Of a DNA stretch of 64,000 bases, positions 12,504 to 30,900 are shown one piece after another. The DNA lies in assembly GCF_002838765.1 (NCBI RefSeq), contig NZ_CP025120.1:62001-126000 (forward strand), read 5' to 3'. Position 1 is the first letter of the stretch. The number at the start of each line of letters is the position of its first letter. This DNA is from Kangiella profundi. GTDB taxonomy: Bacteria; Pseudomonadota; Gammaproteobacteria; Enterobacterales; Kangiellaceae. The position numbers and the translations under genes are program-made. The notes under the pieces are model-generated. The model was not told the origin of the DNA. It did no database searches and saw nothing but the letters and a program-made list of their open reading frames with translations.

Positions 12504-12607
12504 ATGTCTGAATAAAAGGACTGAGAAAAAATCTATGAACAAGTTTGTAAGCAAGTTTGTGAGATAGGGGCTAGGAATTTGTGACTTAGCATGTGTATAA
12601 TTCGAGC

Positions 12608-12724: not shown

Positions 12725-12751
12725 CACAACCTATCTATTGATCTAATGTAG

Positions 12752-14686
<1,935 letters not shown>

Positions 14687-14706
14687 CAGAAGCAAATGGT
14701 GAGCCT

Positions 14707-15762: not shown

Positions 15763-15943
15763 TGATGAAGCTTTAGAATTAGACAAACCCATGAGTGTTG
15801 CAGAGTTCATCCAATGGTTTAAGCAAGAAGGAAATTTTGCGATCGCTGTAAATATGGAGTTTGTGCCACGCTCCTTATATGGCGAGACCTTGTTGAGAGA
15901 GGGGGATCGGGTTGAGATTGTTTTGCCGATGCAAGGCGGATAA
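15746..15943 (+). CDS. thiS: Sulfur carrier protein ThiS
   Basis: A 65-residue ubiquitin-like sulfur carrier ending in the required Gly-Gly (PMQGG). The terminal Gly is adenylated and thiocarboxylated, then donates sulfur to the thiazole made by ThiG. The ATG at 15746 is preferred because GAGG lies 6 nt upstream; an ATG at 15731 in the same frame has no such site. It overlaps the 3' end of thiO by 17 nt, indicating coupled translation. Confidence 0.95.
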   Translation: MQLIVNDEALELDKPMSVAEFIQWFKQEGNFAIAVNMEFVPRSLYGETLLREGDRVEIVLPMQGG

Positions 15944-16112
15944 AACAAAAAAATCGTCACAATTACTTTGTTATAAAACAGTATCCTGCAAGGTCATTTA
16001 CTAAAGTAAACTCCCTCTGGGACACTGTTTTTTGCCGCGTACTTGTTTAGCTTTTTTGTTTTATCAGGTAAATGGAATTTATGAAGTTATAAGCTCAAGC
16101 GTGCAGGATTGC

Positions 16113-16341
16113 TCCAAAAACCCCTTTTGATTGAGCTGAGTAGTAGCCAAGACATAGCAATTCAAAACAGGACGTTTTGAATAGTAAAATTCGGGCCAGG
16201 GATGGAACGTATTTTACGGTGCGTTAAGTGGCTTGGCGGATACGAAGGAAGTTGAACGAAGTGAAACCTCAATCACGGGGTGGTCTTCTTTTGGTTACTT
16301 TTCTTGACCACGCAAGAAAAGTAACTCGCTGAGTAGCGAAA
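16113..16341 (-). repeat. Structured dispersed repeat, copy 1 (between thiS and thiG)
   Basis: This copy lies in the 459-nt thiS-thiG gap and, read on the minus strand, aligns along its whole length with copies at 23650-23877 and 29745-29973. Hairpins: TCGCT/AGCGA with loop ACTC (16326-16339); a perfect 13-bp stem GTTACTTTTCTTG/CAAGAAAAGTAAC with a 6-nt loop (16294-16325); and ATTCAAAAC/GTTTTGAAT (16160-16182). The element ends near CTCAGCTCAAT (minus strand). The rest of the gap (15944-16112 and 16342-16402) holds nothing recognisable. Confidence 0.9.
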
Positions 16342-16402
16342 CAAAACTTATTAGTCGCTGATATGGTAAGAAAATGGAACGAAAAACTAATATGAGAATT
16401 AA

Positions 16403-17176
16403 ATGCTAAAAATCGGTAATAAAAAAATAAACAGCAGATTATTTGTCGGCACGGCGTTATACCCGTCGCCACAAATAATGCTGGATGCCATTAAGGCTAC
16501 TGAAGCAGATGTGGTGACTGTATCGGTCAGACGACAAGGTTTGGGTGGGGAAACTTTCTGGAGGCAGTTACAACAATTAGATTGTCATTGGCTGCCCAAT
16601 ACAGCCGGATGCCACTCTGCGAAGGAAGCTATCACGACCGCTGAAATGGCACGTGAAATTTTTCAAACCAACTGGATTAAGCTTGAAGTAATTGGTGATG
16701 AATACAATCTTCAACCGGATCCGTTTCAGTTGCTCGAAGCCACTAAAGAATTAGTTAAACGTGGTTTTGAGGTATTTCCTTATTGCACGGATGATTTGGT
16801 TTTATGCCAACGCTTATTGGATGCAGGGTGTAATATTTTAATGCCGTGGGGAGCGCCGATTGGAACGGGCCGAGGACTTAGTGACCCTTATGCTCTGCAA
16901 ACTTTGCGCAAGAGACTTCCGAATGTTCCGATGGTAATTGATGCAGGCTTGGGTCTGCCTTCGCATGCTACTCAGGCGATGGAAATGGGTTTTGATGCAG
17001 TATTATTAAATACAGCTATTGCTCAAGCTGATAATCCTGTATTGATGGCAGAAGCATTTAAAGATGCAGTGTCTGCAGGGCGCAAGGCTTATCAGGCAGG
17101 TGCTATGCCTCAGCGCGATCTGGCTCAACCAAGTACGCCCGTTTTAGGCACACCTTTCTGGCAACAGGAATCATGA
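16403..17176 (+). CDS. thiG: Thiazole synthase ThiG
   Basis: A 257-residue TIM-barrel enzyme that joins deoxyxylulose phosphate, dehydroglycine and ThiS thiocarboxylate into thiazole phosphate. The Schiff-base lysine is K93 in [10 protein letters not shown], and the phosphate-binding region [10 protein letters not shown] and the segment [12 protein letters not shown] are intact. It is separated from thiS by a structured repeat instead of the usual few bases, and overlaps thiDE by 4 nt at its 3' end. Confidence 0.96.
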
Positions 17177-18654
17177 GTAGGCAAACTAAACCGATGGTTT
17201 GGAGTCTTGCCGGACTGGATAATTCTGGTTTGGCTGGTCAACTTGCCGATGTCAAAACCATTCAGGCATTAGGAGCTCACGCTTGCAGTGTTACCACAGC
17301 GATAACTGCGCAAAATAGCCAGCGGGTAGTAGCGATCAACCCTTCAACAACAGAGCAGTTAGAATCACAACTCGAAGCACTACGCGAGTTAGGTGAGCCA
17401 AATGCTATTAAGGTGGGTCTTTTGCCCAGCATAAACTGTCTTGAGTTATTAATAGATTTCCTTGAACAAGCAGAAAAGTCCATTCCATTAGTATTCGATC
17501 CAGTCATAGAAACATCGTCGGGTACACAGCTAATGCCGGACGAAGTCATCGAACAATTATACAAGTTACTACCGCTCGTTACTGTCATCACTCCGAATAT
17601 TGATGAGTTGGCAAGGTTAACCGGACAGGACACCAAGTCGATAGAAGATATTGAAAGTCAGGCAAAAACACTAATCGATTGGGGTGTGGGTTCGGTATTG
17701 GTGAAGGGTGGGCATTGGCCATCTGAGCGGGCTTCGGATTTTTTCATAAACAGAAATAATAAGTTTTGGCTGCACAGTGATAGAAAAGAAACGGATAATT
17801 CGCGTGGAACCGGGTGTGTATTATCGTCAGCCATAGCGACATCTTTAGCCTTGAATTATTCCATCGAAGATGCGGTGGTGATTGGCAAAATGGCCTTGAA
17901 CCAAGGATTAAGGCATAGCTACCCTGTTAGGGAGCAAAAGGGACCCTTATCGGTTAAGTCATGGCCTATTGATGAGCAGGACATGCCACAACTCACCAAG
18001 CAGTATTCATTAAGTGAATACTACTTTCCTTCATTAGAAAAGCAGATATTGGGTTTATATCCAGTAGTGGATAGTGCCGAATGGTTGGAGCGGTTATTGC
18101 CCTTGGGTATTACGACCATACAGTTGCGAGTGAAGGACCTAAAGGGTGACTCATTAGAGAGTGAAATTCAAAAGGCAGTAGCTATCTCTAGACAATACAA
18201 TGCCAGGTTATTTATCAATGACCATTGGCAGCTGGCAATTAAGTATCAAGCCTATGGCGTACACTTGGGGCAGGAAGATCTGGATGATGCGGACCTCGCA
18301 GCAATCAGTCAGGCAGGATTGTACTTAGGAGTCAGCACCCACTGCTTTTACGAGGTGGCACGTGCTCACGCGATAAAACCAAGCTATCTGGCTTGTGGCC
18401 CCGTGTACCACACCGACAGTAAGCAAATGCCCTGGATTCCACATGGAATTGAGAATTTAAATTATTGGAAAAATTTGATGCAGAGTTATCCATGGGTTGC
18501 CATCGGGGGCATCAATACTGATAGAATCGCAGACGTAGCAAGCACGGGTGTGTCTGGTATTGCGATGATTTCAGCAATTACTAAGGCCCATAATCCTGAA
18601 CAGACAGCTACAAATATGATGCAACTGATTGAACAACACAGGCCTAGGGTATGA
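17173..18654 (+). CDS. thiDE: Bifunctional HMP(-P) kinase / thiamine phosphate synthase ThiDE
   Basis: A 493-residue fusion. The ThiD ribokinase-like half (about 1-265) shows [18 protein letters not shown] and the anion-hole motif [12 protein letters not shown]; the expected GG of the first motif is NSGL here, a mild deviation. A linker leads to the ThiE TIM barrel (about 290-490) with [27 protein letters not shown] and [10 protein letters not shown]. It phosphorylates HMP-P and couples it to thiazole phosphate to make thiamine phosphate. It overlaps thiG upstream and the rhodanese gene downstream by 4 nt each, so the operon is translationally coupled. Confidence 0.93.
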
Positions 18655-19007
18655 GCAAATTTGAGTGGCAGGAATCTGAAAAGGTACAGCTGATCAGTCC
18701 AGAGCAGTTAAAACAATGGGTAAGCCAGCAGGATGCACCCTTAGTGATCGATGTGCGAAACGGCGAAGAACATGATGCTGATAAGGCTTTACTGGAGTTT
18801 GCGACAGTAGGAACACTTAAAAACATTCCGATTACAGAGTTCGGCAGTCATATCAATCAACTGGATCCTGATCAGCCAACCGTGCTTGTCTGCCAAGTAG
18901 GACAGAAAAGCTTTAACGCTGCCAGCCTGCTGATTCAGGCAGACTTTTCCTGTGTCTACAGCTTGCATGGCGGCATGGAAGCGTTGAGGCGGGAAGCCGC
19001 CGAATAA
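18651..19007 (+). CDS. Rhodanese-like sulfurtransferase at the end of the thi operon
   Basis: A 118-residue single-domain rhodanese. VIDVRNGEEHD marks the first half and the catalytic cysteine is C81 in VCQVGQKSF, a six-residue active loop as in true sulfurtransferases. There is no signal peptide. It overlaps thiDE by 4 nt (ATGA). Because no thiF gene is present in the operon, a job in passing sulfur to ThiS is attractive, but this is inference from position only. Alternative: a general persulfide carrier. Confidence 0.85.
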   Translation: MSKFEWQESEKVQLISPEQLKQWVSQQDAPLVIDVRNGEEHDADKALLEFATVGTLKNIPITEFGSHINQLDPDQPTVLVCQVGQKSFNAASLLIQADFSCVYSLHGGMEALRREAAE

Positions 19008-19109
19008 TAGACTGTAACATTCTGCTACAGTCTTGTATGAGGTATTTCGATATACTCATGAGGTTTCTATTAAATCGAATAATAAAGTAAGCATTGGGGA
19101 TTTTCGTTT

Positions 19110-19661
19110 ATGAGCAGTGAACAAGAACAGCAGCAGGAAGCCCAGCAAACAAATGAACAAGGGCAGCCAGAACAGCAGGACAATCTTATTTCGCGCCTCC
19201 CAGAAAGCAGTCAGAGACTCCATCCTGACTCCATCAAGGTATCAAGAATTACAGTAGCATTTGTTAGTCTTATTATTATGTTGGTACCGACGGTAGTAGC
19301 ATTATTAAGCGAATCTTATCTGATCATCGCAATTGGTGTGGCGGCGGGACTCATCGTTTTTACCATTGGATTTATTTGGGCCAAAAAATCGTATGACTAC
19401 ACCTGGTACTGGCTGGCTGATGAAGGGCTGTATATTCAAAGCGGTGTCTGGTGGCGAAAAAAAACACTGATTCCTTTTAATCGAGTGCAACACACTGATG
19501 TGGCGCAAGGTCCATTAGAACGCAAGTATGAATTGGGCAAGTTGGTGACGCATACCGCGGGTACACGTGATGCATCAGTTTCGCTGGATGGCATATTGCT
19601 GGATACTGCTCATGAGTTACGTTCCGTGCTACAGGAAGAAGGCGAAAGCGATGCAGTCTGA
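19110..19661 (+). CDS. Bacterial PH-domain membrane protein (YdbS-like)
   Basis: A 183-residue protein with a Gln/Glu-rich N-terminus (1-50), two membrane segments (about 55-95) and a C-terminal bPH2 (DUF304) domain of about 80 residues, which carries LIPFNRVQHTDVAQGPLERKYELG, abbreviated here as its IPFNRVQHTDV core. This matches E. coli/Bacillus YdbS-type proteins. Function is unknown; in Bacillus YdbS/YdbT have been linked to resistance to certain bacteriocins. It overlaps the following YdbT-like gene by 11 nt. Confidence 0.88.
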   Translation: MSSEQEQQQEAQQTNEQGQPEQQDNLISRLPESSQRLHPDSIKVSRITVAFVSLIIMLVPTVVALLSESYLIIAIGVAAGLIVFTIGFIWAKKSYDYTWYWLADEGLYIQSGVWWRKKTLIPFNRVQHTDVAQGPLERKYELGKLVTHTAGTRDASVSLDGILLDTAHELRSVLQEEGESDAV

Positions 19662-21138
19662 AGTACAGGCCAATCGGCTGCACAAAATTTCCCCGTTATT
19701 TATTCTGTTCGAGAATATTAAGAAGCTGATATTCCCTATTGTATTAGCCTTGTTCAGTACCCGCAGTAGCTCGTGGGAGTGGTTTGCATTGGGTTTTGCC
19801 TTGATTATCAGTTTGGGAGCTATTATCCAATACCGTTTTTATCGCTACTGGTTAGAGGGCGATAAGATTCGAGTACAGGAAGGGATCTTTTTTCGCAACG
19901 TGCGCCAGGTTCCTTATAAAAAAATTCAGAATCTAAATTTAGTGCAGTCACCATTACACCGTTTGTTTGGGGTGGTTAAGGTACAGCTTGAATCGGCATC
20001 AGGTGGTAAACCCGAAGCGGTTATTAACGTGATCGATATGCAGGCTGTGAAGGTACTTAAACATAAAATTAATGATGAAGAAGAGCAGCTGAATGAAGAG
20101 GTCGCTCAACCTAAAGACAGTATCCTGAGCTTATCCTTTGGCGAGATTGTTCGTTACGGCATGATTACCAATCGAGGGCTCGTCGCTGTGGCCATCTTTT
20201 TTGGTTTCATCATGCAATTTATGGATGACCAGATTGAGCGATTGATCACTAACTATATCAGTCAATTCACACAATGGATTGATGGGCTGGTCAGCAGTAT
20301 CGAATTCGAAAATGGCTGGCTTTACTACACCCTGATAACCATCATTGGAGTTGTCTCGGCAATTATTGCCTTGTGGCTATTGTCGATTGCCATGGCGTTG
20401 CTCAAGTTTCATGGTTTCGTATTGGTAAAAAATAAAGACAAGCTACAGGCAACCATGGGATTACTGACACGCCTGCAGGCGACCATTCCCATGACCAGAA
20501 TACAAACCTTGACCATTCATGAGTCGTTATTGCACCGTTGGTTTAAGCGAATCGGTATCACCATCGAAACTGCCGGTGGCGTCAATAATGAACAGCAGGG
20601 TGTCAGTATGAAACAGGTGGTGCCGGTTGCTCCGAATGGCATGCGTCATGAATTGCTAAAAGAAATTCAGGGCGATGTTGATTGGGAGGCCATTGAATGG
20701 CAACCGATTAATCAGAAAGGCTGGCGTCGCGTGCTTAAAGTAATGGTTCTAATAGGTTTAGTCATAACTGCACCATTAGCATTATGGAACCTATATGCCT
20801 ATCCGATCGGCTTTGTAATATGGCTAATCTATAGCGTTTATTACTCAAAAGCCTATGTCAAAGGGGCGGGTTATCACATCAATGGTCAATTGGTGGCCTT
20901 TAAAGATGGAGTCATTTTTACCAAGTACACCTTTGTCAGGTTACCGAAAACTCAGACTATAACGGTTAAAGAAAGTCCATTTGATCGTCGTCATGGCATG
21001 GCCAGCCTTGTAATCGACACGGCCGGTGCCATGGTCGGTGCACATCATATCAATATTCCCTATCTGGACCTTGGCGTGGCTATAGCGATTAAAGATCGTA
21101 TCAGCGATAACATCAAAGGCACCAAGTTCAATTGGTAA
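19651..21138 (+). CDS. PH-domain membrane protein (YdbT-like)
   Basis: A 495-residue membrane protein from the ATG at 19651, chosen because GGAAGAAGG lies upstream and the upstream extension would only read through the neighbour. It has three bPH2 (DUF304) modules: the first ends around VRQVPYKKIQNLNLVQSP, the second around MTRIQTLTIHESLLHRW, the third around VRLPKTQTITVKESPFDRR, with membrane pairs between. The YdbS-YdbT pair is widespread and conserved together, so the proteins probably form a complex in the inner membrane. Function is not established. Confidence 0.88.
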   Translation: MQSEVQANRLHKISPLFILFENIKKLIFPIVLALFSTRSSSWEWFALGFALIISLGAIIQYRFYRYWLEGDKIRVQEGIFFRNVRQVPYKKIQNLNLVQSPLHRLFGVVKVQLESASGGKPEAVINVIDMQAVKVLKHKINDEEEQLNEEVAQPKDSILSLSFGEIVRYGMITNRGLVAVAIFFGFIMQFMDDQIERLITNYISQFTQWIDGLVSSIEFENGWLYYTLITIIGVVSAIIALWLLSIAMALLKFHGFVLVKNKDKLQATMGLLTRLQATIPMTRIQTLTIHESLLHRWFKRIGITIETAGGVNNEQQGVSMKQVVPVAPNGMRHELLKEIQGDVDWEAIEWQPINQKGWRRVLKVMVLIGLVITAPLALWNLYAYPIGFVIWLIYSVYYSKAYVKGAGYHINGQLVAFKDGVIFTKYTFVRLPKTQTITVKESPFDRRHGMASLVIDTAGAMVGAHHINIPYLDLGVAIAIKDRISDNIKGTKFNW

Positions 21139-21170
21139 TTAATCATTCCAATTGCTGATGACTAACCTAT

Positions 21171-21195
21171 CAGAGTCAGTCTTAGACTGGCTCTG
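21171..21195 (+). terminator. Hairpin after the PH-domain pair
   Basis: CAGAGTCAGTC and GACTGGCTCTG pair over 11 bp with a single T-G mismatch/wobble and a 3-nt loop, 32 nt after the stop. No clear T-run follows, so it may be a weak or Rho-assisted terminator or an mRNA 3'-end stabiliser. Confidence 0.5.
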
Positions 21196-21339
21196 AGTTC
21201 CATTGAAAGCATCTATCGGCGGTATATTTTTCATACCGTAATAGAGTAAATTTCAGGCGTAGATGTTAGAATGGCGTCAATTTTATCAGTTTCAAACTGC
21301 CTGCCATAAGCGGGTATCCAATATTCAGAAGGTTATTTC

Positions 21340-22536
21340 ATGAATCAAGAATTTCTCAAGCATATTCAGCAAAACATTGACGAAGTTAAGGAAGCCGGTC
21401 TCTATAAGAAAGAAAGGGTCATCGACTCACAACAGGCCGCCGATATTCATGTCACAACAGGTGAGAGTGTTCTCAATTTTTGCGCCAATAACTATCTTGG
21501 TTTGGCTAACAGTCCTGAGCTGATTAAGGCTGGTCAGGAAGCGCTGGACCATTATGGTTACGGCATGGCTTCCGTACGCTTTATCTGTGGTACGCAAGAT
21601 GTGCATAAAGAACTGGAAAAGCGTATAAGCGATTTTCTAGGTATGGAAGATACGATTCTTTATTCTTCCTGTTTTGATGCCAATGGTGGTTTGTTTGAAA
21701 CCTTATTGGATCCGGAAGATGCGGTCATTTCTGATGCATTGAATCATGCTTCGATTATCGACGGTGTTCGTTTATGTAAAGCAAAGCGTTACCGCTATGC
21801 CAATAACGACATGGCCGATCTTGAAAAGCAATTGCAACAGGCAGATGCCGATGGCGCACGCTATAAGCTGATTGTAACTGATGGGGTATTCTCAATGGAC
21901 GGCATCATTGCCGACCTTAAGTCAGTCTGTGACTTGGCCGATAAATACAATGCGTTAGTTATGGTTGATGATTCACATGCGGTGGGCTTTATTGGTGAGA
22001 AAGGTAAAGGCTCACATGAGTTCTGTGATGTGATGGGTCGCGTGGACATTATTACTGGTACTTTAGGTAAAGCACTTGGTGGCGCATCCGGTGGTTACAC
22101 CGCAGCCAGCAAAGAAGTCGTTGAATGGTTACGTCAGCGTTCACGTCCGTATTTATTCTCAAATACTTTGGCGCCAGTGATTGCCGCCGCCAGTCTGAAA
22201 GTTCTGGATATGCTGGAAAATGGCGATGAGTTACGCAAGAAACTGCGTCGTAACAGTGAATACTTCCGCGAAAAAATGACCGCTTTAGGTTTTGAATTGG
22301 TGCCAGGCGAACATCCTATTATCCCAGTGATGCTTGGTGATGCCGCATTAGCCAGCAAGTTTGCTGACATGATGTTGCAAGAAGGCATCTATGTTATCGG
22401 TTTCTCTTTCCCGGTTGTACCAAAAGGGCAGGCCCGTATTCGTACGCAAATGTCAGCCGCCCACGATATCGCACATATTGATCGCGCCATTGCCGCTTTT
22501 GAAAAAGTGGGTAAAGAGCTTGGCGTAATTAGCTAA
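21340..22536 (+). CDS. kbl: 2-amino-3-ketobutyrate CoA ligase (glycine C-acetyltransferase)
   Basis: A 398-residue PLP enzyme of the alpha-oxoamine synthase family that splits 2-amino-3-ketobutyrate with CoA into glycine and acetyl-Co[33 protein letters not shown] and the PLP-lysine motif GTLGKALGG are all present, and length equals that of E. coli Kbl (398). It stands 20 nt before tdh, the usual threonine-degradation operon. Confidence 0.96.
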
Positions 22537-22556
22537 TTTTGCTTGGGGTAGATTGA

Positions 22557-23582
22557 ATGAAAACATTAAGCAAAGCCAAATCTGAAAAAGGTATTTGGAT
22601 GGTCGATCAGCCCAGACCTGAGTTGGGCCATAACGACGTATTAATCAAGATTAAGAAAACCGCAATCTGCGGTACCGACATGCACATTTATCACTGGGAT
22701 GAGTGGGCACAGAATACCATTCCGGTGCCGATGACGGTTGGCCACGAATACGTGGGTGTGATCGAAGAAGTGGGCCAGGAAGTTAAGGGTTTTAACGTTG
22801 GCGATCGCGTGTCTGGCGAAGGCCATATCACCTGTGGCGTCTGCCGTAACTGTCGCGCAGGGCGACGTCACCTATGTCGAAACACAGTGGGCGTCGGTGT
22901 TAATCGTCCGGGAGCTTTTGGTGAGTATCTGGTTATTCCCGCAGAAAATGCCTACAAGATTCCAGATGACATTTCGGATGAAGTGGCATCCATTCTCGAT
23001 CCACTTGGTAACGCAGCGCACACAGCATTATCATTTGATCTGGTCGGGGAAGATGTACTAATTACTGGCGCAGGCCCAATCGGCATTATGGCGGCAGCAA
23101 TTGCTCGCCACGCTGGTGCACGTCATGTGGTGATTACCGATATCAATGACTACCGCCTGGACTTGGCAAAGCAGATGGGCGCAACCCGTACCGTTAATGT
23201 TAGCCAGGAAAAGCTCGAAGATGTCATGAAAGAAATCGGCATGAAAGAAGGTTTTGATGTGGGTATGGAAATGTCAGGCGTGCCGTCAGCTTTCCGCTCA
23301 ATGCTACAAACCATTAATCATGGCGGCAAGATTGCCATGCTGGGTATTCCGTCAAGTGATCTGGCGATTGACTGGAATCAGGTCATTTTCAAAGGCCTCA
23401 TCATCAAAGGCATTTATGGCCGTGAAATGTATGAGACTTGGTATAAGATGATCGCTATGTTGCAGTCTGGTCTGGATGTCTCTCCTATCATTACTCATCG
23501 CTTTAACATTGACGACTTTGAAACAGGCTTCGAAACCATGGCCAGTGGTCAGTCAGGCAAAGTGGTTTTGAGTTGGGATTAG
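22557..23582 (+). CDS. tdh: L-threonine 3-dehydrogenase
   Basis: A 341-residue zinc-dependent medium-chain dehydrogenase that oxidises L-threonine to 2-amino-3-ketobutyrate for Kbl. Catalytic zinc site [15 protein letters not shown] and VGHEYVG, structural zinc cluster [18 protein letters not shown], and the NAD-binding [12 protein letters not shown] are intact. Same length as E. coli Tdh (341). It forms an operon with kbl. Confidence 0.97.
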
Positions 23583-23649
23583 ATTAGTATAGTTTTATTT
23601 TGTGATAATGTAGATATGGAATAGTGCGTAGGAAAACTCTGACCAATGT

Positions 23650-23877
23650 TTTCGCTACTCAGCGAGTTACTTTTCTTGCGTGGCCAAGAAAAGTAACCAA
23701 AAGAAGGCCACCCCGATATTGAGGCCATTCTGCGAATGACTGCCTTCGTAGCTCTCAAGCCACTTAACGCACCATAAAATACAGGCCTTCCTTGGCCTGA
23801 ATTTTACTATCAAAATCATCCAAGATTTTGATTGCTATGACTTGAGATCTCCTCAGCTCAATATAAAGGGGATCTAA
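23650..23877 (+). repeat. Structured dispersed repeat, copy 2 (tdh-elaA gap)
   Basis: Occupies most of the 339-nt gap. Hairpins on the plus strand: TCGCT/AGCGA with loop ACTC (23652-23665); immediately after it GTTACTTTTCTTG/CAAGAAAAGTAAC with a 6-nt loop (23666-23697); CATTC/GAATG near 23726-23738; CAGGCC/GGCCTG (23782-23799); ATCAAAATC/GATTTTGAT (23809-23832). It ends with CTCAGCTCAAT and a GGGGATCT tail. It is close in sequence to copy 1 and more divergent from copy 3. Confidence 0.9.
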
Positions 23878-23921
23878 GATGTGCTTACTGATGATGGCCG
23901 AGTAAACTTACAAAAATTGAG

Positions 23922-24392
23922 GTGACTTTGGGTATAAGTATTCGCTGGCGAAGTTGGAACGGTTTATCCAAGAAGGAGTTGTATGACCTGATACAGCTTC
24001 GCCTTGCTGTTTTTTGTGTGGAACAGAATTGTCCCTATCAGGATCTTGATGGTCTGGATAAACTTGCTATGCACTTACTGGCTTACGATGATGGAAAGCT
24101 GGTGGGCTATTTGCGGTTATTTGAATCACTGGAGCAGTATCATGGGCTGGCTTCAATTGGGCGGGTGTGTACTGAAAGTGCTTATCGAGGCAAAGGTCTG
24201 GCGCGAGATATGATGCAACTGGCGTTGAGTTACAGTGATCAGAACTTTGCTAAAAACATCAAAATTAGTGCGCAGCACTATCTCGAAGATTTCTACTCCA
24301 GTTTGGATTTTGTCACGGTAACGGAACCCTATCTCGAAGATGGTATCCCACATATAGGCATGATAAGACAATACGAGGATAACGATGTTTAA
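23922..24392 (+). CDS. elaA: GNAT N-acetyltransferase, ElaA-like
   Basis: A 156-residue GNAT-fold protein. LRLAVFCVEQNCPYQDLDGLDK is the ElaA hallmark (core VEQNCPYQDLDG), and the acetyl-CoA loop is seen as GRVCTESAYRGKGLARDM. The substrate of ElaA proteins is unknown. The start is a GTG at 23922 or a TTG at 23928; GAGG just upstream suits the latter slightly better, and no ATG is near. The 3' end overlaps glpG by 8 nt. Confidence 0.9.
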   Translation: MTLGISIRWRSWNGLSKKELYDLIQLRLAVFCVEQNCPYQDLDGLDKLAMHLLAYDDGKLVGYLRLFESLEQYHGLASIGRVCTESAYRGKGLARDMMQLALSYSDQNFAKNIKISAQHYLEDFYSSLDFVTVTEPYLEDGIPHIGMIRQYEDNDV

Positions 24393-24984
24393 AGATTTTC
24401 TGGCTCAAGCCGGCTGGATGACCAAAACCCTAGTTGGTATCTCTATTCTGGTCAGTATTTTGACTATGTCTGGGACTAATGAATACACCTACTGGTTTGC
24501 CTTTAACTGGAATCTTATTTTACAAGGCGAAGTTCACCGACTGATTACTCCAATCTTTTTGCATTTTATGATCGGTGCTTTCCCAATTCATTTATTGTTT
24601 AACATGATGTGGTTATGGGATCAGGGTGGCTCAATTGAAAAAGCACGAAGTGCCTGGTATTTACTGGTAATAGTGCTCATTACAGGTGTCGCCTCTAATG
24701 TGGGTGAGTATTTCTCATCAGTTTATTTTGGCTCAGGAAGGTCTTATCTGTTTGGCGGAATGTCCGGTGTTGTATATGGCCTGTTAGGCTTTAACTTTAT
24801 ACGCCGTCGTTTCGATCCTTTCTTCCCTGTGCATGTCCATCCGGGTCTGATGCAGTTTATGTTGCTGTGGCTGGTACTTGGCTTCACTGGATTATTGGGT
24901 AACATCGCCAATGCTGCACACTTAGTCGGACTATTGAGTGGCGGCCTGTTAGGTTACATCACGGCAAAAACGCGAGCATTTTAG
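24385..24984 (+). CDS. glpG: Rhomboid intramembrane serine protease
   Basis: A 199-residue membrane protease with six predicted membrane segments. The catalytic dyad is S127 in GGMSGVVYG and H179 in ANAAHLVG, and the oxyanion-side HLLFNMMWLW motif is present. The N-terminal cytoplasmic domain of E. coli GlpG (276 residues) is missing, so this is the minimal rhomboid core. It is followed 2 nt later by glpE, the pairing also known from E. coli glpEGR, although glpR is absent. Confidence 0.93.
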   Translation: MFKDFLAQAGWMTKTLVGISILVSILTMSGTNEYTYWFAFNWNLILQGEVHRLITPIFLHFMIGAFPIHLLFNMMWLWDQGGSIEKARSAWYLLVIVLITGVASNVGEYFSSVYFGSGRSYLFGGMSGVVYGLLGFNFIRRRFDPFFPVHVHPGLMQFMLLWLVLGFTGLLGNIANAAHLVGLLSGGLLGYITAKTRAF

Positions 24985-24986
24985 CG

Positions 24987-25301
24987 ATGAATATGTTTAA
25001 AAGAATCAGCATTGAGCAGACCATACAACTGATGCAGAACAAGGAAGTTCTGCTAGCAGATATTCGCGACCCGCAGTCATTTGCCGCGGGACATATGCCT
25101 AAGTCAAAGAATATCAATAACCAGAATGCCGCAGAGTTTATTCAGGAATCTGACAAAGAAAAACCACTAGTTGTGGTTTGCTATCATGGTAACAGCAGTC
25201 AACCTGCGGCCCAATATTTTGCCGCTAATGGCTTTAAGGAAGTCTACAGCATGGATGGCGGTTTTGAGTTGTGGAAACTGAATAATCCGGTAGAGAAATA
25301 A
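24987..25301 (+). CDS. glpE: Thiosulfate sulfurtransferase GlpE (rhodanese)
   Basis: A 104-residue single-domain rhodanese. The active site VCYHGNSSQPAA has its cysteine at C65, the same position and nearly the same loop as E. coli GlpE. LLADIRDPQSFAAGHMP marks the first half. It transfers sulfane sulfur from thiosulfate to thiophilic acceptors in the cytoplasm. It is the second rhodanese of the window and is cotranscribed with glpG. Confidence 0.95.
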   Translation: MNMFKRISIEQTIQLMQNKEVLLADIRDPQSFAAGHMPKSKNINNQNAAEFIQESDKEKPLVVVCYHGNSSQPAAQYFAANGFKEVYSMDGGFELWKLNNPVEK

Positions 25302-25331
25302 TTCTCTATTAACCACAGATTCCTAACTGCA

Positions 25332-25565
25332 TTATGCAGAAAAGCTCTCGATAGGATCCGGTGGCAACTCGTCCGTTAATATCTCTCTAGCTCGAATATA
25401 ATTTTCTTCATCAACCATCAGCGGTACTTCACCAATAGTGAAAGAGTAGGTACTAAGGGAGTGCTCATGCAAGATTGTGGCCTGGATGCCATGAGATTCA
25501 AGAAGGCCACGGGCGATATGTGCCTGCATGGTGTTGGGATAAGTTTCGACAACCACTAATGACAT
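25332..25565 (-). CDS. DUF2007 domain protein
   Basis: A 77-residue soluble protein with the DUF2007 pattern: VETYPNTMQAHIARGLLESHGI, then a hydrophobic strand and PLMVDEENYIRAREIL. Such proteins have a ferredoxin-like fold and are annotated as putative signal-transducing proteins without proven role. It has a clear AGGAGG ribosome site. It faces glpE tail to tail. Confidence 0.85.
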   Translation of the reverse strand: MSLVVVETYPNTMQAHIARGLLESHGIQATILHEHSLSTYSFTIGEVPLMVDEENYIRAREILTDELPPDPIESFSA

Positions 25566-25626
25566 AAAAACCTCCTTGCATATGAATTATTAAGCCACGA
25601 ACAAAGAAGGATTGCAATTGGGGTTG

Positions 25627-25706
25627 TAGGGACAAGTCATGACTTGTCCGTACCAAAAGGTTGACTCAAAAAAGTAAGTAGGGCGGACACATAGGTCCGC
25701 CCCTAC
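25627..25706. repeat. Pair of palindromic GTAGGG-type repeats
   Basis: Two hairpin modules stand side by side in the gap after ahpF. The first contains the perfect 20-bp palindrome GGACAAGTCATGACTTGTCC (25630-25649). The second has GGGCGGAC/GTCCGCCC with a 6-nt loop (25681-25702). Both are bordered by GTAGGG on the left and a TACC on the right. Similar short palindromes are common in many bacterial genomes. They may also end ahpF transcription. Confidence 0.75.
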
Positions 25707-25719
25707 CAAGAGTGGTGTT

Positions 25720-27330
25720 TTATGCCGCTTCTGATTGGCTAGACTGATGATCCTGATACATCTTTTCAAGGCGTGATGAGTTAGCCAACAGGTATTCAAA
25801 AGATGCCAGTGAGGCTTTGGATCCTTCGCCCATCGCCACTACGATTTGTTTATAAGGTACAGTAGTTACGTCTCCACAGGCAAAGATACCCGGCTGTGAT
25901 GTTTCGCATTTTTCGTTGATCACTACCTCACCGAAGCGGCTCAACTCTACTAGGTCACCCAGGAACTTACTGTTCGGCACCAGTCCAATCTGCACAAACA
26001 CACCGTCTAACTTTTGTGTATGCAAGGCTTCGGTCGCTCTGTCCTGATACTCGATAGCAGACACTTTACCATTTTCTGAATGAATCTCTTTCGTCGCTAC
26101 ATTGCGCAGAATGGTGATGTTGTCACGAGCTTCTGCCTGATCGACCAGGACCTTGTCGGCTTTCAGTTCGGGCATGAATTCGAAGACAGTGACTGACTTC
26201 ACGATGCCTGCCAAATCAAGTGCCGCTTCGATGCCTGAGTTACCACCGCCAATGACGGCAACATCTTTGCCTTTAAAGAAAGGGCCGTCACAGTGAGGGC
26301 AGTAGGCAACTCCATTACCGATGTTTTCTTTTTCACCGGGGATGCCTAGCTCACGCCATTTAGCACCAGTAGCGATAATTAGCGTTTTACTGTCAATCAC
26401 TTCTCCTGACGAAAGAGTCACGCTTTTGATATCACCTTGTTCGATATCGGTAACACGTAGATGCTCTTTAACAGTAACGTCGTAATCATTCAGGTGCTGT
26501 TGTAAAGCACCCGATAATTCAGGGCCTGTCGTTTTTGGCACAGAAATCAGATTTTCGATACCCATGGTGTCTTTGACCTGACCACCGATGCGATCAGCAA
26601 TCAGGGTAACCTTAAGGCCTTTGCGCGCGCTGTAAATCGCGGCACCAACACCTGCAGGGCCTCCACCAATCACAACGACGTCCTGCAAAGGCATTTGCTC
26701 GTCAGAATTAGCCTGGGCAATGCTCGGATCTTTTTCCAGCAACTTATCAATCAGTTCCGCGGCAGTCACTTTACCGTTAGCGAACAGCTCACCGTTCATG
26801 TAGACACTTGGGACACCTTGAATGTCGCGTTCTTTGATCATGTCCTGGAACAAGCCACCATCAATCATTTCTGTCTTAATGTTTGGATTCAGTAGCGCAA
26901 ACTGATTTAACGCCTGAACCACATCAGGACAGTTATGGCAGCTGAGGCTGATGAAAACCTCAAAATTCATTTCCTGTTGTACTTTGGCCACCATCTTTTT
27001 CAGGGAATCATCCAACTTGACCGGACTTCCGGCTGCCTGTAATACAGCAAGCACCAGAGAGTTAAACTCATGGCCAGATGGGATGCCTGAGAATCGGATG
27101 CCTGTGTCGTTTCCGTCTACCTCAAGAATGAAGCTGATCGGACTGCGAACCTGACCTGACAGGTCACGTTCTTCTAATTGCAGTTTGTCGCTGACGCTGA
27201 CAAAGCTGGTTAGGAATTCTTTAAGTTCATTACGTTTTGAATGCTCACCGGTTTGCAAAACGAAAGTCACCGTCTTTTGCATCTTGGCGGTATAGCCCTT
27301 TAAGGCTTCTAAAATTTGATTATTCAACAT
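25720..27330 (-). CDS. ahpF: Alkyl hydroperoxide reductase subunit F
   Basis: A 536-residue flavoprotein disulfide reductase that recycles AhpC with NADH. The N-terminal tandem thioredoxin-like domain carries CHNC (in [10 protein letters not shown]), followed by an FAD-binding [10 protein letters not shown], the redox pair CPHC in [11 protein letters not shown], an NADH-binding [10 protein letters not shown] and a C-terminal [13 protein letters not shown]. Length is close to E. coli AhpF (521). The gene lies behind ahpC in the same direction with a gap of about 137 nt, and divergent oxyR is the expected regulator. Confidence 0.96.
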
Positions 27331-27467
27331 GGGGTATTCACCTTTGTCTTGCGTTGATTGTTTATTTCTCAGCCACTGAAAAAGCGGACGAAGAAATGCT
27401 CAAGCTCCGGAGAGCTGGTTGGCCGAAGCCAGCCAATTCTTAAGAGTACGACTGCAAACAGTCGGTC

Positions 27468-28031
27468 TTAGATTTTGCCTACCAGGTCTAATGAAGGAGC
27501 AAGTGTTTCTTCACCTTCTTTCCAGGCTGCTGGGCAAACCTGACCAGGGTTATTGCGTACATACTGAGCAGCTTTGATTTTACGTACTAGCTCTTCAGCA
27601 TCACGTCCAACACCTTCAGCAGTGATTTCCATGACTTGGATAACGCCGTCAGGATCAACAACGAATGTACCGCGGTCGGCAAGGCCTTGGCCTTCACGCA
27701 TAACGTCAAAGTTACGAGTGATTTCACCTGTTGGGTCACCGATCATTCCGTATTTGATTTTGCCAATAGTGTCTGAAGTTTCATGCCATGCTTTGTGAGT
27801 GAAGTGTGTGTCAGTAGATACTGAGAATACTTCTACGCCACGGCTTTGCAGTTCTTCGTAATGATCAGCCAGGTCGCCTAGCTCGGTAGGACATACGAAT
27901 GTGAAGTCAGCTGGGTAGAAGAAAAATACTGCCCATTTGCCTTCGATATCTTTGTTAGAAACTTCAACAAACTCACCATTTTTAAAAGCAGTTGCTTTGA
28001 ATGGTTTAATTTCAGTGTTAATAAGTGCCAT
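27468..28031 (-). CDS. ahpC: Alkyl hydroperoxide reductase subunit C (2-Cys peroxiredoxin)
   Basis: A 187-residue typical 2-Cys peroxiredoxin. The peroxidatic cysteine is in [11 protein letters not shown] and the resolving cysteine in [12 protein letters not shown], both in AhpC context, and the length equals that of E. coli AhpC (187). It reduces H2O2 and organic peroxides in the cytoplasm and is itself reduced by AhpF. A strong AGGAG ribosome site precedes the ATG. It is divergent from oxyR across a 144-nt AT-rich gap that must hold both promoters. Confidence 0.97.
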
Positions 28032-28175
28032 AGTTAGGATCTCCTAATAGTATTAATAAGTAGGTATTTAATTGACTTCGGGGACTACTTTAGAGGTTGC
28101 AGATAAATTAGTAAATTTGATTAATTTGATATTTATGTTCTAAAATATTGAACATCAAGGCTAATAGATATCATT

Positions 28176-29078
28176 ATGATTTCCTTCAAACAGCTAACCT
28201 ATGCACTGGCAGCAGCGGAAACACTTCATTTCAAGAAAGCTGCCGATAAATGCCATGTCAGTCAGTCGGCATTAAGTACGGCGCTCAGCCAGCTGGAAGA
28301 GCAACTGGGCGTTCAGATCTTTGAACGAGATAATAAAAAGGTGCTGGTAACGCCCATAGGGCAAGAAGTATTAGCAAGGGCAGCAGAGATTGTGGCGCAG
28401 GTGAACTCTTTACAGAACCTGTCCTCCAGCCTTAAAGAGCCATTGAGTTTTCCACTGTCCGTTGGAGTCATCCCAACCATAGCACCCTATCTGTTACCCA
28501 AAATGTTTCCGACCCTGAATAAGCGTTTCCCCAATGCAGAGTTGCGTATTGTAGAAGAGCAGTCGCACGTTCTAGTGGAAAAGGTCAGAAAAGGGGAGCT
28601 TGATACCGCAATTCTTGCTTTACCTTATGAATGTGAAGGCTTACTGACCCTGGAGTTCTGGCAGGAGGATTTTTTCTGGGTAACCCTTAAAGGCGACAGA
28701 TACAGTCAGCAGAAAGAAATCACCAGTGATGAAATGATGCACAGCAACCTAATGTTGTTGAAAGAAGGCCATTGTCTTAAAGACCATATTCTGGATGCCT
28801 GCAAATTAAGTGAAGAAGAAACCGAGCATGGCTTCGGGGCAACCAGCTTGAATACCCTGATTCAAATGGTACTGGGCAAGCTGGGAACCACTTTGATTCC
28901 TGAAATGGCATTGGAGCAGCTGATTTCACAGAATAAGGAATTAACAGCGGTCCATCTGAAAGAACCCGGCCCGCATAGACGCATTGCCTTTATTATTCGC
29001 CCTAATTTCACCCGACTATCGAGCGTGGAAGCGTTAAAGGACGTGTGCAAAGATGCTCTGGCCGGCAAGAGGGGTTAG
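28176..29078 (+). CDS. oxyR: Peroxide-sensing LysR regulator OxyR
   Basis: A 300-residue LysR-type regulator with an N-terminal helix-turn-helix (about 1-60: HFKKAADKCHVSQSALS). The redox pair is C200 and C209 in GHCLKDHILDAC, matching C199/C208 of E. coli OxyR, so it should form the disulfide on exposure to H2O2 and activate ahpC, ahpF and probably katG. It is divergent from ahpC, the usual arrangement for autoregulation and target control from one intergenic region. I could not pick out a confident OxyR box by eye. Confidence 0.94.
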   Translation: MISFKQLTYALAAAETLHFKKAADKCHVSQSALSTALSQLEEQLGVQIFERDNKKVLVTPIGQEVLARAAEIVAQVNSLQNLSSSLKEPLSFPLSVGVIPTIAPYLLPKMFPTLNKRFPNAELRIVEEQSHVLVEKVRKGELDTAILALPYECEGLLTLEFWQEDFFWVTLKGDRYSQQKEITSDEMMHSNLMLLKEGHCLKDHILDACKLSEEETEHGFGATSLNTLIQMVLGKLGTTLIPEMALEQLISQNKELTAVHLKEPGPHRRIAFIIRPNFTRLSSVEALKDVCKDALAGKRG

Positions 29079-29140
29079 GCCTTGGGTAATGTGATTAAGA
29101 TCCAGTACAATGACTCTACTTTAGTTTAGTCTGATAATTA

Positions 29141-29695
29141 ATGAATTTTAATAACTGGCAAAATGCAGATGATGCTGCAATAAAAGAGCTCCCTTTTTAT
29201 ATTGCAGAATGGCTGGCGGAATTTGGTTCCTTAACTGAAAAGTTATCGCGCTATGTGGAGCAGGTGAAACTTGATGTGTTGCATGAAGGAATCGGCATCT
29301 TAACCGCAGACGAAGCTAGTGCATTGCAATCTAAAGAAGCAAGTTGCCAGGTAAGGGAAGTCGTGCTCTTTGGTCCTGATAAACCCTGGATATTTGCACG
29401 AACCTGCATGCCTTTTACCAGCAAACACTTAATTGAAAGACTCGGCAATAAGCCATTGGGTAGCATATTGTTTTCTGACGAGGAGTTAAGACGGCAGTTT
29501 TTGCAGGTGTGCCAGCTGGAAGAATCCAATCCGCTATATCAAAGTGCTAGCAGTTATTTAGAAAAAGAAAACATGTTAGTAAATGGAGAGCAACCAACAT
29601 TGTGGGCAAGACGTTCACTTTGGAAGAAAAAAGATAGCAATGATGGGATGTTGGTGTGTGAGGTTTTTTTGCCGGATGCGCCTTTGTATCGATAG
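29141..29695 (+). CDS. ubiC: Chorismate lyase UbiC
   Basis: A 184-residue soluble enzyme that converts chorismate to 4-hydroxybenzoate and pyruvate, the first step of ubiquinone synthesis. REVVLFGPDKPWIFARTCMP holds the conserved core (WIFARTCMP), and the C-terminal LWARRSLWKKK contains the expected Arg. It is slightly longer than E. coli UbiC (165). ubiA follows in the same direction, but 338 nt away because a structured repeat fills the gap. Confidence 0.92.
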   Translation: MNFNNWQNADDAAIKELPFYIAEWLAEFGSLTEKLSRYVEQVKLDVLHEGIGILTADEASALQSKEASCQVREVVLFGPDKPWIFARTCMPFTSKHLIERLGNKPLGSILFSDEELRRQFLQVCQLEESNPLYQSASSYLEKENMLVNGEQPTLWARRSLWKKKDSNDGMLVCEVFLPDAPLYR

Positions 29696-29744
29696 CATTG
29701 TGTGTGTTGTTTTAATTAGTGTTTCGATCAAAGGTTGAGATAAT

Positions 29745-29973
29745 TTTCGCCCCTCGGCGACCTTCTTTTTCTTGTGTGCGCAAGAAAAAGAAGGCAAAAA
29801 GAAGCGCACCCGTGAATTGAGATCATTCTTCGAATGATTACCTTCGAAACGGTTTGTTCATAACGTACCGCGAAATACGTTCCATCCCTGGCCCGAATTT
29901 CGCTATTTGAATCGTCCTGATTCAAATTACTATGACCAAACAGTTCCTCAGCTCAATTCAAATGGGACTTTCC
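29745..29973 (+). repeat. Structured dispersed repeat, copy 3 (between ubiC and ubiA)
   Basis: Fills most of the ubiC-ubiA gap. Hairpins: TCGCC/GGCGA with loop CCTC (29747-29760); CCTTCTTTTTCTTG/CAAGAAAAAGAAGG with a 6-nt loop (29761-29794), a perfect 14-bp stem; ATCATTC/GAATGAT with loop TTC (29822-29838); ATTTGAATC/GATTCAAAT with loop GTCCT (29905-29927). Stem sequences differ from copies 1 and 2 on both arms at once. The segment CGTTCCATCCCTGGCCCGAAT is shared with copy 1, showing the copies have mixed similarity. The remaining bases up to ubiA hold nothing else recognised. Confidence 0.9.
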
Positions 29974-30033
29974 CGAGGCAAGATGGTTAGTTGAATACAA
30001 AAATTTTATAGGTTAATGCACTTATAAAAGGGG

Positions 30034-30900
30034 ATGAAATTGAATAAAGATAAGTGGCGTCAGTATTCGCTATTGATGCGGTTGGATAAGCCCATAGGGA
30101 CTTTTTTGCTGTTATGGCCAACTTTGTGGGCTTTGTGGATTGCGGCTGAGGGTTTACCACCTTTATGGATTTTGCTGGTGTTCTGTCTGGGTGTATTTTT
30201 AATGCGCTCGGCGGGTTGTGTGATCAATGATTATGCTGACCGCGATTTTGATGCGCATGTGGAGCGAACTCGGAATAGACCATTGGCGCAGAATAGGGTA
30301 TCGCCACGTGAAGCTATGAGCTTGTTTTTACTGCTGGTGTTGATAGCATTTGCATTAGCTTTAACCTTGAACTGGTTTGCGGTTAGTCTGAGTTTTGTAG
30401 CTATAGGTCTGGCAGCAACTTACCCTTTCATGAAGCGTTATACTTATTTCCCACAGGTAATTCTGGGCGCCGCTTTTGCCTGGTCAATTCCAATGGCGTT
30501 TGCTGCTATTCAGAATGAGATGCCTTTAATTGTCTGGGTTATCTATACCTCTACAGTATTGTGGGTTCTAGCATATGACACTCTGTATGGCATGGTCGAC
30601 CGCGAGGATGATTTGCGACTGGGTTTAAAGTCTACCGCGATATTGTTTGGTGAAATGGATCTGGTGATGGTGGGTGTTATACAGGCATTGTTCCTGACAG
30701 GCATGTATCTGGTTGGAGAGCAGCTGGAGTTCGGAATCTATTATTACAGTAGTTGGGTTGTAGCTGTGTTGTTGGTTGCGGTTCAGATGTGGCGTTGTCG
30801 CACCCGTGATCGTCAGGAATGCTTCAACGCCTTCTTAAATAATAATTATGTTGGATTAATCCTCTTTTTGGGAATCGTCCTGCACTTCCAGTTTGGGTGA
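30034..30900 (+). CDS. ubiA: 4-hydroxybenzoate octaprenyltransferase UbiA
   Basis: A 288-residue inner-membrane prenyltransferase with about eight to nine membrane segments. Both Asp-rich motifs are intact: NDYADRDFD near residue 70 and DTLYGMVDREDD near 190. It attaches the polyprenyl tail to 4-hydroxybenzoate made by UbiC. Length matches E. coli UbiA (290). Its last 45 nt overlap the 3' end of plsB on the other strand. An ATG with GGGG upstream (AAAAGGGGATG) is used. Confidence 0.95.
   Translation: MKLNKDKWRQYSLLMRLDKPIGTFLLLWPTLWALWIAAEGLPPLWILLVFCLGVFLMRSAGCVINDYADRDFDAHVERTRNRPLAQNRVSPREAMSLFLLLVLIAFALALTLNWFAVSLSFVAIGLAATYPFMKRYTYFPQVILGAAFAWSIPMAFAAIQNEMPLIVWVIYTSTVLWVLAYDTLYGMVDREDDLRLGLKSTAILFGEMDLVMVGVIQALFLTGMYLVGEQLEFGIYYYSSWVVAVLLVAVQMWRCRTRDRQECFNAFLNNNYVGLILFLGIVLHFQFG

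Follow-up and report, generated by a model that had tools for sequence, protein, structure and literature searches.

Three intergenic copies of one element lie in the window, the 64,000-nucleotide stretch of Kangiella profundi DNA analysed here, and they raise the question of what kind of repeat keeps its arms paired while its sequence drifts. Copies reported in an earlier note at 16113-16341 (minus), 23650-23877 (plus) and 29745-29973 (plus) were confirmed, with the stems quoted there and the CTCAGCTCAAT segment all present; sequence is kept for about 10-15 bases beyond that segment (GGGG...TTGGTGC). Read on what is argued below to be the folded strand, the whole element spans 16111..16341 (+) in copy 1, between a thiS-like ORF (15731-15943) and thiG; 23650..23884 (-) in copy 2, between tdh and a GNAT gene; and, with approximate ends, 29745..29985 (-) in copy 3, between ubiC and ubiA. 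Within the whole genome of 2,653,010 bases, copy 2 used as a DNA query gave 20 matches, including some that are fragments of one copy, and the structural model R1 matched 20 places.

Fold and covariation of the element

On the folded strand the core of the element is predicted to be a closed junction, with an outer stem (P3) enclosing P4 and a long arm (P5) that carries two GGA-loop hairpins (P7 and P6). The core lies at 16116..16282 (+) in copy 1 (R1 match G000:C1:78116-78282:+), 23709..23876 (-) in copy 2 and 29807..29971 (-) in copy 3 (R1 match G000:C1:91807-91971:-). Copy 2 scored 186.2 bits, the best score of the R1 search, and is itself a row of the R1 training set.

That pairing is kept under sequence drift, beyond what a duplicated spacer would show, was upheld by covariation far above both shuffled and slid controls. 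In 38 MAFFT-aligned copies and over 66 pairs, the pseudoknot described below included, 290 double-change cells were counted against a shuffled mean of 82; none of 500 shuffles reached as high, and sliding the structure along the alignment gave at most 52. In 111 model-aligned copies the count was 990, against 290 in shuffles and at most 226 for the slid structure. The model-fitted alignments (A3, and A4 with 26 Kangiella rows new relative to A3) lean towards the structure, and the MAFFT alignments (A1, A2) agree with smaller numbers. GGA was identical in both hairpin loops across the 34 rows of A2, which are the 38 rows of A1 less four: two of these had inserts in a loop, one had a deletion and one an insert elsewhere. 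Some copies carry inserts within the GGA loops, and one copy (L244) has lost both hairpins. The earlier note had overlooked the outer stem, as well as the pseudoknot with its loop triple, and had taken the other strand than the folded one.

Folding energies were better than those of shuffled sequences on both strands (z -4.8 and -5.1) and so were uninformative as to strand. Mismatches were uneven. On the strand of the Rfam match, G-U exceeded A-C by 128:31 and G-A exceeded T-C by 275:16, and this asymmetry recurred in three row sets. It was weaker in the alignment not fitted to the model (A1; 36:14 in core helices) and absent there over P1, the long stem and the pseudoknot stem (24:23). Taken with the covariation, the asymmetry shows the Rfam strand to be the folded strand.

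The earlier note had proposed either a folded RNA or a DNA cruciform. Selection on a fold was borne out, and the strand-symmetric cruciform was disfavoured, as mismatch asymmetry speaks against it and a single strand is required for both the loop triple and a pseudoknot stem that is interleaved with another. A double-stranded DNA structure in general (cruciform or H-DNA), bound by a chromosome or transposition protein, would suit the palindromes and mirror repeats and the placement between genes. It would also predict even counts of G-U and A-C, which were not seen, and it would not, as a simple cruciform, require the covariation found in the long-range stems P3 and P5 and in the interleaved stem of the pseudoknot; we regard such a structure as very unlikely.

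The core matches the TwoAYGGAY family

The earlier note knew of no named family for the element, and this was overturned by an Rfam search. RF01731 TwoAYGGAY (clan CL00106) matched all three window copies, at 16139-16244 (+), 23734-23867 (-) and 29823-29963 (-), with 49.1, 48.2 and 47.1 bits against a gathering cut-off of 43, each time on the strand opposite to that given in the earlier note. The family scored above its cut-off in 11 of the 15 genome matches listed, and reached it in 11 of the 56 distinct pseudoknot loci scanned outside the window. In Psychromonas, Aeromonas-like, Pseudomaricurvus, Chromatiales and Thiotrichales loci it lies on the strand of the pseudoknot and within about 80 bases 5' of it.

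Family and element have in common two GGA-loop hairpins in one arm, on the same strand, and the Rfam outer stem includes P5. The outer part of that stem differs, however, from the covarying P3 of the Kangiella element, and RF01731 covers only the middle of the element, without P4, the 3' pseudoknot, the loop triple, P1 or divergent pairing. The core belongs to this named but functionally unexplained family; what had not been noticed before is a conserved knot at the tail of the element, probably of three strands. TwoAYGGAY thereby gains a different outer architecture and, in Kangiella, copies that are mobile and mostly not leaders. The family has been on the list since 2010 without a function, and the 2010 source table carries an 'n' in its cis column. 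A literature search covering mostly papers outside subscription turned up no recognisable account of the pseudoknot or of mobility in TwoAYGGAY, and no Rfam family matching the 3' pseudoknot was found.

A second family, RF02902 (AaHKsRNA22), matched inside one Aggregatibacter actinomycetemcomitans copy, on the same strand and directly 5' of the pseudoknot. It is only 101 nt long and ends before the pseudoknot, unlike the full element, and it gave no match in another copy of the same genome (L125) or in one A. kilianii copy (L118).

A 3' pseudoknot with a putative loop triple

Directly 3' of the core, the sequence predicts an H-type pseudoknot of the order a-L1-b-a'-b', followed by hairpin P1 and a GCGAAA end; in many taxa P1 is part of a second pseudoknot. 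In copy 1 this domain occupies 16279..16343 (+) (model R2 match G000:C1:78279-78343:+). In copy 2, all on the minus strand, the first strand of the pseudoknot stem (a, GTGGCC, 23706..23711) covaries with the second (a', GGCCAC, 23680..23685), and covariation likewise supports the long stem formed by b (GTTACTTTTCTT, 23686..23697) and b' (AAGAAAAGTAAC, 23666..23677) and the P1 hairpin at the 3' end (TCGCT...AGCGA, 23652..23665). Loop L1 (TTCTTTT, 23699..23705) stands in parallel register with the AAGAAAA of the long stem, and b' would supply the purine tract of the proposed triple. In copy 3, relative to copies 1 and 2, the b/b' stem, the pseudoknot stem and L1 change in concert.

Across loci, including those of other taxa, the first strand of the pseudoknot stem pairs with its own partner over 4.61 bp on average, whereas shuffled partners reached 3.57 at most. 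L1 matched its own stem at 860 of 912 positions (shuffled maximum 764) and followed it at two A/G-variable positions in 110 of 114 and 112 of 114 loci. Agreement with b' was 94.3% in the parallel register and 84.7% in the best antiparallel one; among 84 tracts without mirror symmetry, 62 matched 7/7 in parallel and one in antiparallel. At the level of sequence, L1 follows the purines of b' in the parallel register, in the manner of a pyrimidine-motif major-groove triple helix, and we infer about seven consecutive triples from the covariation. In the H-type pseudoknots of telomerase RNA, SAM-II and preQ1-II, a pyrimidine loop occupies the second stem's major groove. They resemble the present element in pseudoknot type and loop placement, with no homology claimed, and differ from it in that here about seven triples would follow one another in a repeated bacterial element. 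Confirmation would make the loop triple a triple helix widespread among bacteria.

Insertion, orientation and copy number

Copy 2 was present in two of the 18 genus genomes read, and in the other 16 its flanking genes adjoin without it; the insertion boundary was placed approximately. At the copy 1 locus the element occurs in both orientations among Kangiella genomes, and copy number per Kangiella genome ranges from 0 to 50. The empty sites, the orientation switch and the range of copy number together indicate that the element is mobile. By sequence comparison, its insertions lie in intergenic gaps and can face either way, and divergent 5'-to-5' pairs are common. Inverted ends were seen only in paired copies, and no clear target-site duplication was found in 13 copies of one genome (G924), where repeats form a mosaic and have inverted ends.

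REP elements have GTAG/GTGG-based hairpins and a RAYT transposase. REP/BIME repeats, MITEs and IS200/IS605 derivatives are, like the window element, short, non-coding, intergenic, multi-copy, palindromic and mobile; the window element differs in its multi-helix junction and proposed triple-helix pseudoknot, and neither a target duplication nor a mobilising gene came to light. The earlier note had named a match to a transposon or MITE end as a finding that would count against it. Mobility was indeed found, but simple palindromes that bind a transposase would leave the multi-helix fold and the loop covariation unexplained.

We favour, with modest confidence, a mobile element that is non-coding and non-autonomous, measures about 235-240 bases and has a structured RNA encoded on its Rfam strand. 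The folded molecule would be RNA, its triple-helix pseudoknot may protect or define the 3' end, and the two GGA loops may hold a CsrA dimer in gammaproteobacteria, so that copies would add CsrA-titrating RNA.

Alternatively, the fold could be selected as single-stranded DNA, the Rfam strand being a substrate or intermediate of transposition or replication and any RNA incidental. IS200/IS605-type and attC-type sites fold as single-stranded DNA in this way, and pyrimidine-motif triples also form in DNA. Mobility would suit this alternative, as would the near absence of wobble pairs from P7 (7 G-U in 990 cells, rare for an RNA stem), the P4 loops, which by eye are triloops in most copies, and the pseudoknot modules, which face outwards in divergent pairs like inverted ends. 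Against it stand the small RNA family on the same strand of the Aggregatibacter copy, the CsrA type of the GGA-loop hairpins, and the single element match in five of seven Aeromonas-like genomes. On balance we consider it possible but unlikely. More doubtful is a SINE-like bacterial element, in which the folded RNA would be the mobile form and the triple-helix pseudoknot and the second pseudoknot would mark its 3' end for recognition by RNA-dependent machinery, such as a cellular reverse transcriptase. Selection for the fold would then arise because RNAs that fold poorly would not be copied back into the chromosome.

Gene context and CsrA

Rfam gives the type of RF01731 as 'Cis-reg', which would make the element a cis-regulatory leader. 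Among 130 Kangiella copies, with long ORFs taken as genes, the next gene in the direction of the RNA lay on the same strand in only 31, of which 21 were co-directional and 10 divergent, while in 99 it lay on the opposite strand; three of the 130 overlapped an ORF of at least 90 aa. A leader was rejected for Kangiella on this count, and despite the Rfam annotation we hold that reading to be extremely improbable. A promoter scan of one Aeromonas-like locus gave two hits against 1.1 expected, both opposite to the RNA strand.

To our knowledge, the CsrB/CsrC/RsmX/Y/Z small RNAs are not mobile repeats. They carry GGA in hairpin loops, as the window element does, but the latter has two GGA loops per unit, a large junction and a pseudoknot. 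For TwoAYGGAY, a role as a CsrA-titrating small RNA has been proposed (PMC4333381). The element might accordingly be read as a CsrA-titrating small RNA gene family that spread by ordinary duplication and has no mobility of its own. Its two GGA loops and this published proposal would fit, as would CsrA itself, which is encoded in 20 of 20 Kangiella genomes; three of these are without the element, and CsrA presence in all of them is uninformative as a correlate. Insertion polymorphism and orientation switches at fixed loci, 0-50 copies within one genus, internal insertion modules and the apparent loss of GGA hairpins in some lineages argue against ordinary duplication, and a non-mobile gene family appears distinctly improbable. 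The present results make both the CsrA-sponge proposal and the reason for an RNA-like fold in a mobile repeat directly testable.

Distribution across genomes

Model R2, which describes the pseudoknot, matched 95 of 369 sampled genomes of the class, about a quarter, and the TwoAYGGAY core is now tied to it. The pseudoknot often occurs in divergent pairs. Of 80 pseudoknot loci from a pattern scan, the Kangiella core model R1 matched six; with this and the 11 of 56 loci reached by RF01731, core and pseudoknot were linked by eye outside the matched loci. Inspection by eye also suggests that beta-proteobacterial and Aggregatibacter copies have no GGA hairpins.

With a Kangiella copy as query no phage match was obtained, and the plasmid collection gave one record, from Variovorax, covering 22% of the query; for genus g16, the array unit had no plasmid match. 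The Aeromonas-like query matched a plasmid-labelled record of 4.9 Mb, at a position that carries no annotation.

Identity and genomic setting of the element

Inspection of the sequence found the three intergenic copies where the earlier note had placed them. Read on the folded strand, the whole elements span 16111..16341 (plus strand), 23650..23884 (minus) and 29745..29985 (minus; ends approximate), hereafter copies 1 to 3. That note had matched them to no named family, but cmscan identified RF01731 (TwoAYGGAY) above the gathering score on all three, in each case on the strand opposite to that first read (hereafter the Rfam strand). In a 2010 table TwoAYGGAY is listed as probably an RNA, with "n" in the cis column and with human gut, gammaproteobacteria and Clostridiales as sources (PMC2864571). 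CsrA binding was proposed in a 2014 paper, which describes the external stem as poorly conserved (PMC4333381), and two covarying pairs were added in Rfam 15 (PMC11701678). Neither mobile repeats nor a pseudoknot are mentioned for this family in the excerpts of these three papers.

The genome of K. profundi is a single contig of 2,653,010 bases, in which a structural model located the element at 20 places; a DNA search also returned 20 matches, some being fragments of one copy. The model found the element in 17 of 20 Kangiella genomes, at 2 to 50 places each, and at none in the other three. Seventeen further family genomes gave no match in a DNA search, and the structural model matched one family member outside Kangiella (G027). 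Flanking genes are co-directional at all three loci: a thiS-like open reading frame (by eye; after thiO) and thiG for copy 1, tdh and a GNAT gene for copy 2, and ubiC and ubiA for copy 3. At 12604-18654 a TPP riboswitch is followed by thiC, thiO, the thiS-like frame, thiG and a thiD-thiE fusion, an apparent operon with copy 1 inside it. At 29141-30900 copy 3 splits ubiC from ubiA, which are expected to be co-transcribed, and its RNA strand opposes both genes.

Comparison of the loci among Kangiella genomes shows that the element has been inserted. The copy 2 locus was readable in 18 of 20 genomes, K. profundi included; the element is present in K. profundi and K. aquimarina, and in the 16 others the flanking genes are adjacent once the second gene's unaligned start is taken into account. 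In the two element-bearing genomes the genes lie 339 and 336 bases apart, which exceeds the length of the element by about 100, and the insertion boundary is accordingly approximate. At the copy 1 locus (18 of 19 readable), three loci carry the element in one orientation, two carry it in the opposite orientation, a further locus contains what by eye is an internally deleted copy in that second orientation, and 12 lack it. Two of the 12 element-free loci (L245 and L247) retain a short remnant resembling P1, the 3'-end hairpin. Among 130 Kangiella copies, the neighbouring long open reading frames were convergent in 55, divergent in 10, both against the RNA in 44 and both with it in 21. Three of the 130 overlapped a frame of at least 90 amino acids by more than 60 bases, and in two of these the frame lay mostly inside the element.

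Core fold and covariation

On the Rfam strand the outer stem, P3, pairs CCCC...ATATTGAG with CTCAATAT...GGGG. Helix P5 encloses two hairpins, P7 and P6, whose loops both contain GGA, and the P5 arm is followed by the well-conserved segment ACGGTGCGTTAAG, helix P4, a pseudoknot and P1. The earlier proposal that pairing is kept while sequence drifts was borne out by comparison of copies: in a MAFFT alignment of 34 core copies, 93.0% of the cells were paired and 244 showed double changes, against a shuffled mean of 72 and at most 45 for slid structures. Corresponding values were 92.9%, 990, 290 and at most 226 for 111 model-aligned matches, and 91.8%, 290, 82 and at most 52 for core plus pseudoknot in 38 MAFFT-aligned copies. 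P5 was the worst-paired helix (79.2% in the 38-copy alignment, 85.6% in the 111-row alignment); within P6 the two inner pairs were frequently G-A or otherwise non-standard. In copy 2 the predicted centroid fold contained P3, P5, P6, P7 and P4; the minimum-free-energy fold formed P6, P7, P4, the long stem of the pseudoknot and P1, with the outer parts paired otherwise. Its z-score was -4.8, against -5.1 with a weaker energy for the opposite strand, so folding energy does not decide between strands.

Mismatch counts show that the Rfam strand is the one that folds. The earlier note had also allowed for a DNA cruciform, a strand-symmetric structure that predicts even counts. On the Rfam strand of the 111 rows, which like those below are related copies and hence not independent, G-U exceeded A-C by 128:31 and G-A exceeded T-C by 275:16, a skew that argues against the cruciform. 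It recurred in 26 further Kangiella rows (29:9 and 40:6; 32 aligned, six repeated rows omitted) and in 42 rows of other genera (50:17 and 36:12). In the 38-copy alignment, which was not model-fitted, G-U to A-C was 36:14 in the core helices and even, 24:23, in P1, the long stem and the pseudoknot stem, where that alignment is partly misaligned.

The pseudoknot and its loop

The segment 3' of the core has the order a-L1-b-a'-b', in which L1 is a loop and b/b' the long stem. In copy 2 the parts are GTGGCC, TTCTTTT(G), GTTACTTTTCTT(G), GGCCAC and AAGAAAAGTAAC; in copy 3 they are GTGCGC, TTCTTTTT(G), CCTTCTTTTTCTT(G), GCGCAC and AAGAAAAAGAAGG, all changed in concert. A pattern scan of species genomes, in which b (from its preceding G), b' and the start of P1 were fixed and a, a' and the remainder of L1 could vary, yielded at least 119 stretches (80 listed) and at least 128 matches. 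Those listed included Methylobacter, Xanthomonas, Lysobacter, Thiobacillus, Methylotenera, Aggregatibacter, Psychromonas, Kangiella and others, as well as one Verrucomicrobia and one Myxococcota-type (Cystobacterineae) assembly that may be mis-binned.

When L1 was set parallel to b' (T over A, C over G), 860 of 912 positions matched in 114 distinct loci among the scan matches listed; L1 dealt out randomly gave a mean of 733 and a maximum of 764 in 2000 shuffles, which ignore kinship. Both tract types were, however, found within a single contig (L172) and a single bin (bin-499). At two b' positions that vary between A and G, L1 matched in 110 and 112 of the 114 loci, and at the outermost of the eight L1 positions, where b' is often C, in only 78. 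The parallel register gave 94.3%, against 84.7% for the best antiparallel one. Among 179 model-aligned copies, 158 had a hairpin and 151 were parseable, with L1 matching at 7/7 positions in 110 and at least 6/7 in 134; for 84 tracts without mirror symmetry, 7/7 matches were parallel in 62 and antiparallel in one. A triplex-type contact is the only process known to us that would yield covariation in a parallel register, and the comparison suggests that L1 and b' form a major-groove RNA triple.

When each strand was set against its own partner, stem a/a' averaged 4.61 base pairs, whereas shuffled partners averaged at most 3.57 (113 loci, 200 shuffles); 21 of the 113 had three or fewer. P1 was present in 105 of these loci, and a second pseudoknot spanning P1 averaged 4.21, against at most 3.32 when shuffled.

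Occurrence in other taxa

A structural model of the core matched 52 of 394 genomes of the order, Kangiella included, and 10 of 114 genera. Seven genomes of one genus, termed Aeromonas-like because an A. caviae record matched at 88%, had one or two matches each; in one match of 67% G+C every helix is retained with other letters (by eye), followed by the pseudoknot. In Psychromonas, Aeromonas-like, Pseudomaricurvus, Chromatiales and Thiotrichales loci and one further gammaproteobacterial locus, RF01731 was placed no more than about 80 bases 5' of the pseudoknot and on its strand. The core model matched just six of the 80 pseudoknot loci listed, four of them Kangiella, and RF01731 scored at its cut-off or higher in 11 of the 56 distinct loci examined, so homology of the core elsewhere is a by-eye reading. 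A pseudoknot model trained on 54 of 74 chosen sequences matched 95 of 369 genomes of the class (77 of 272 genera) and 72 of 398 in an overlapping phylum sample; the 21 of these 72 that fell outside the class belong to a single family and are weak matches (E 3e-6 to 7e-4). No Rfam family covered the pseudoknot in the 56 loci, and the only families inside the element as read were TwoAYGGAY and AaHKsRNA22. In five betaproteobacterial, Thiotrichaceae and Aggregatibacter loci (L102, L119, L127, L172, L109) a TGTYTGAGC...GCGAGTT-like arm seemingly replaces the gammaproteobacterial GGA hairpins (by eye).

Proposed mechanism

The element is most likely a non-autonomous mobile unit that would yield a structured RNA, with the triple-helix pseudoknot serving as a stable 3' end and the GGA loop pair holding CsrA in gammaproteobacteria. 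Both the 3'-end function and CsrA binding are put forward here as candidate roles. RNA, rather than single-stranded DNA, is presumed to be the folded molecule. The chief difficulty for RNA is that P7 has so few wobble pairs: 7 G-U and one mismatch in 990 cells of the 111-row alignment (columns 49-57 with 94-102), though most positions vary. So low a count would be easier to explain if the fold were in single-stranded DNA or if copies had been corrected against one another. The sole sign of transcription is an indirect one, AaHKsRNA22 (RF02902; Rfam type sRNA), which lies on the predicted strand inside one Aggregatibacter element and had no match in two other Aggregatibacter copies scanned.

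Divergent pairs, arrays and inserted modules

Comparison across genomes shows a paired arrangement. Among the best 270 places listed in 73 genomes (own genome excluded), 32 neighbouring pairs lay within 1500 bases: 28 were divergent with pseudoknots outward (17 genomes), four tandem and none convergent. All 14 Kangiella pairs within 300 bases were divergent (counted by eye). One genus (g16) had divergent pairs and also tandem arrays that repeat about every 363 bases, and L066 had two divergent pairs side by side, inner members facing. Twelve of the listed places begin no more than 40 bases into their contig, a pattern to be expected of repeats that are recent and nearly identical.

In genome G924, 13 fetched copies (L365-L377) are divergent composites of about 0.8 kb. 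They share a centre that appears to be non-coding, and their outer ends are inverted and resemble TTGATACCGGACTGGCAAGTTTGTG, both ends matching in nine of the 13. A TCCCTAAGGGATTTCCTTCGGTCAC-like module, about 25 bases long, lies within the P6 or P7 GGA loops of L011, L016, L017, L031 and L048 and near the pseudoknot of L030, as if the loops were sites of insertion or exchange. A 19-base insert (AGGGTCTGCCCCTTTGGGT-like) occupies the same internal ACGC^ACC site in L011, L014, L016 and L017, and so marks these as one lineage of related copies. At L013:1380-1520 the pseudoknot is seemingly lost and another repeat, which brings GGA hairpins of its own, takes its place; one of these hairpins, GTACAAGGATGTAC, is CsrA-consensus-like. 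A GTCATTCCCGCGAAGGCGGGAATCC-like repeat adjoins the RNA 3' end, just outside it, in L002, L005, L010, L011 and L016.
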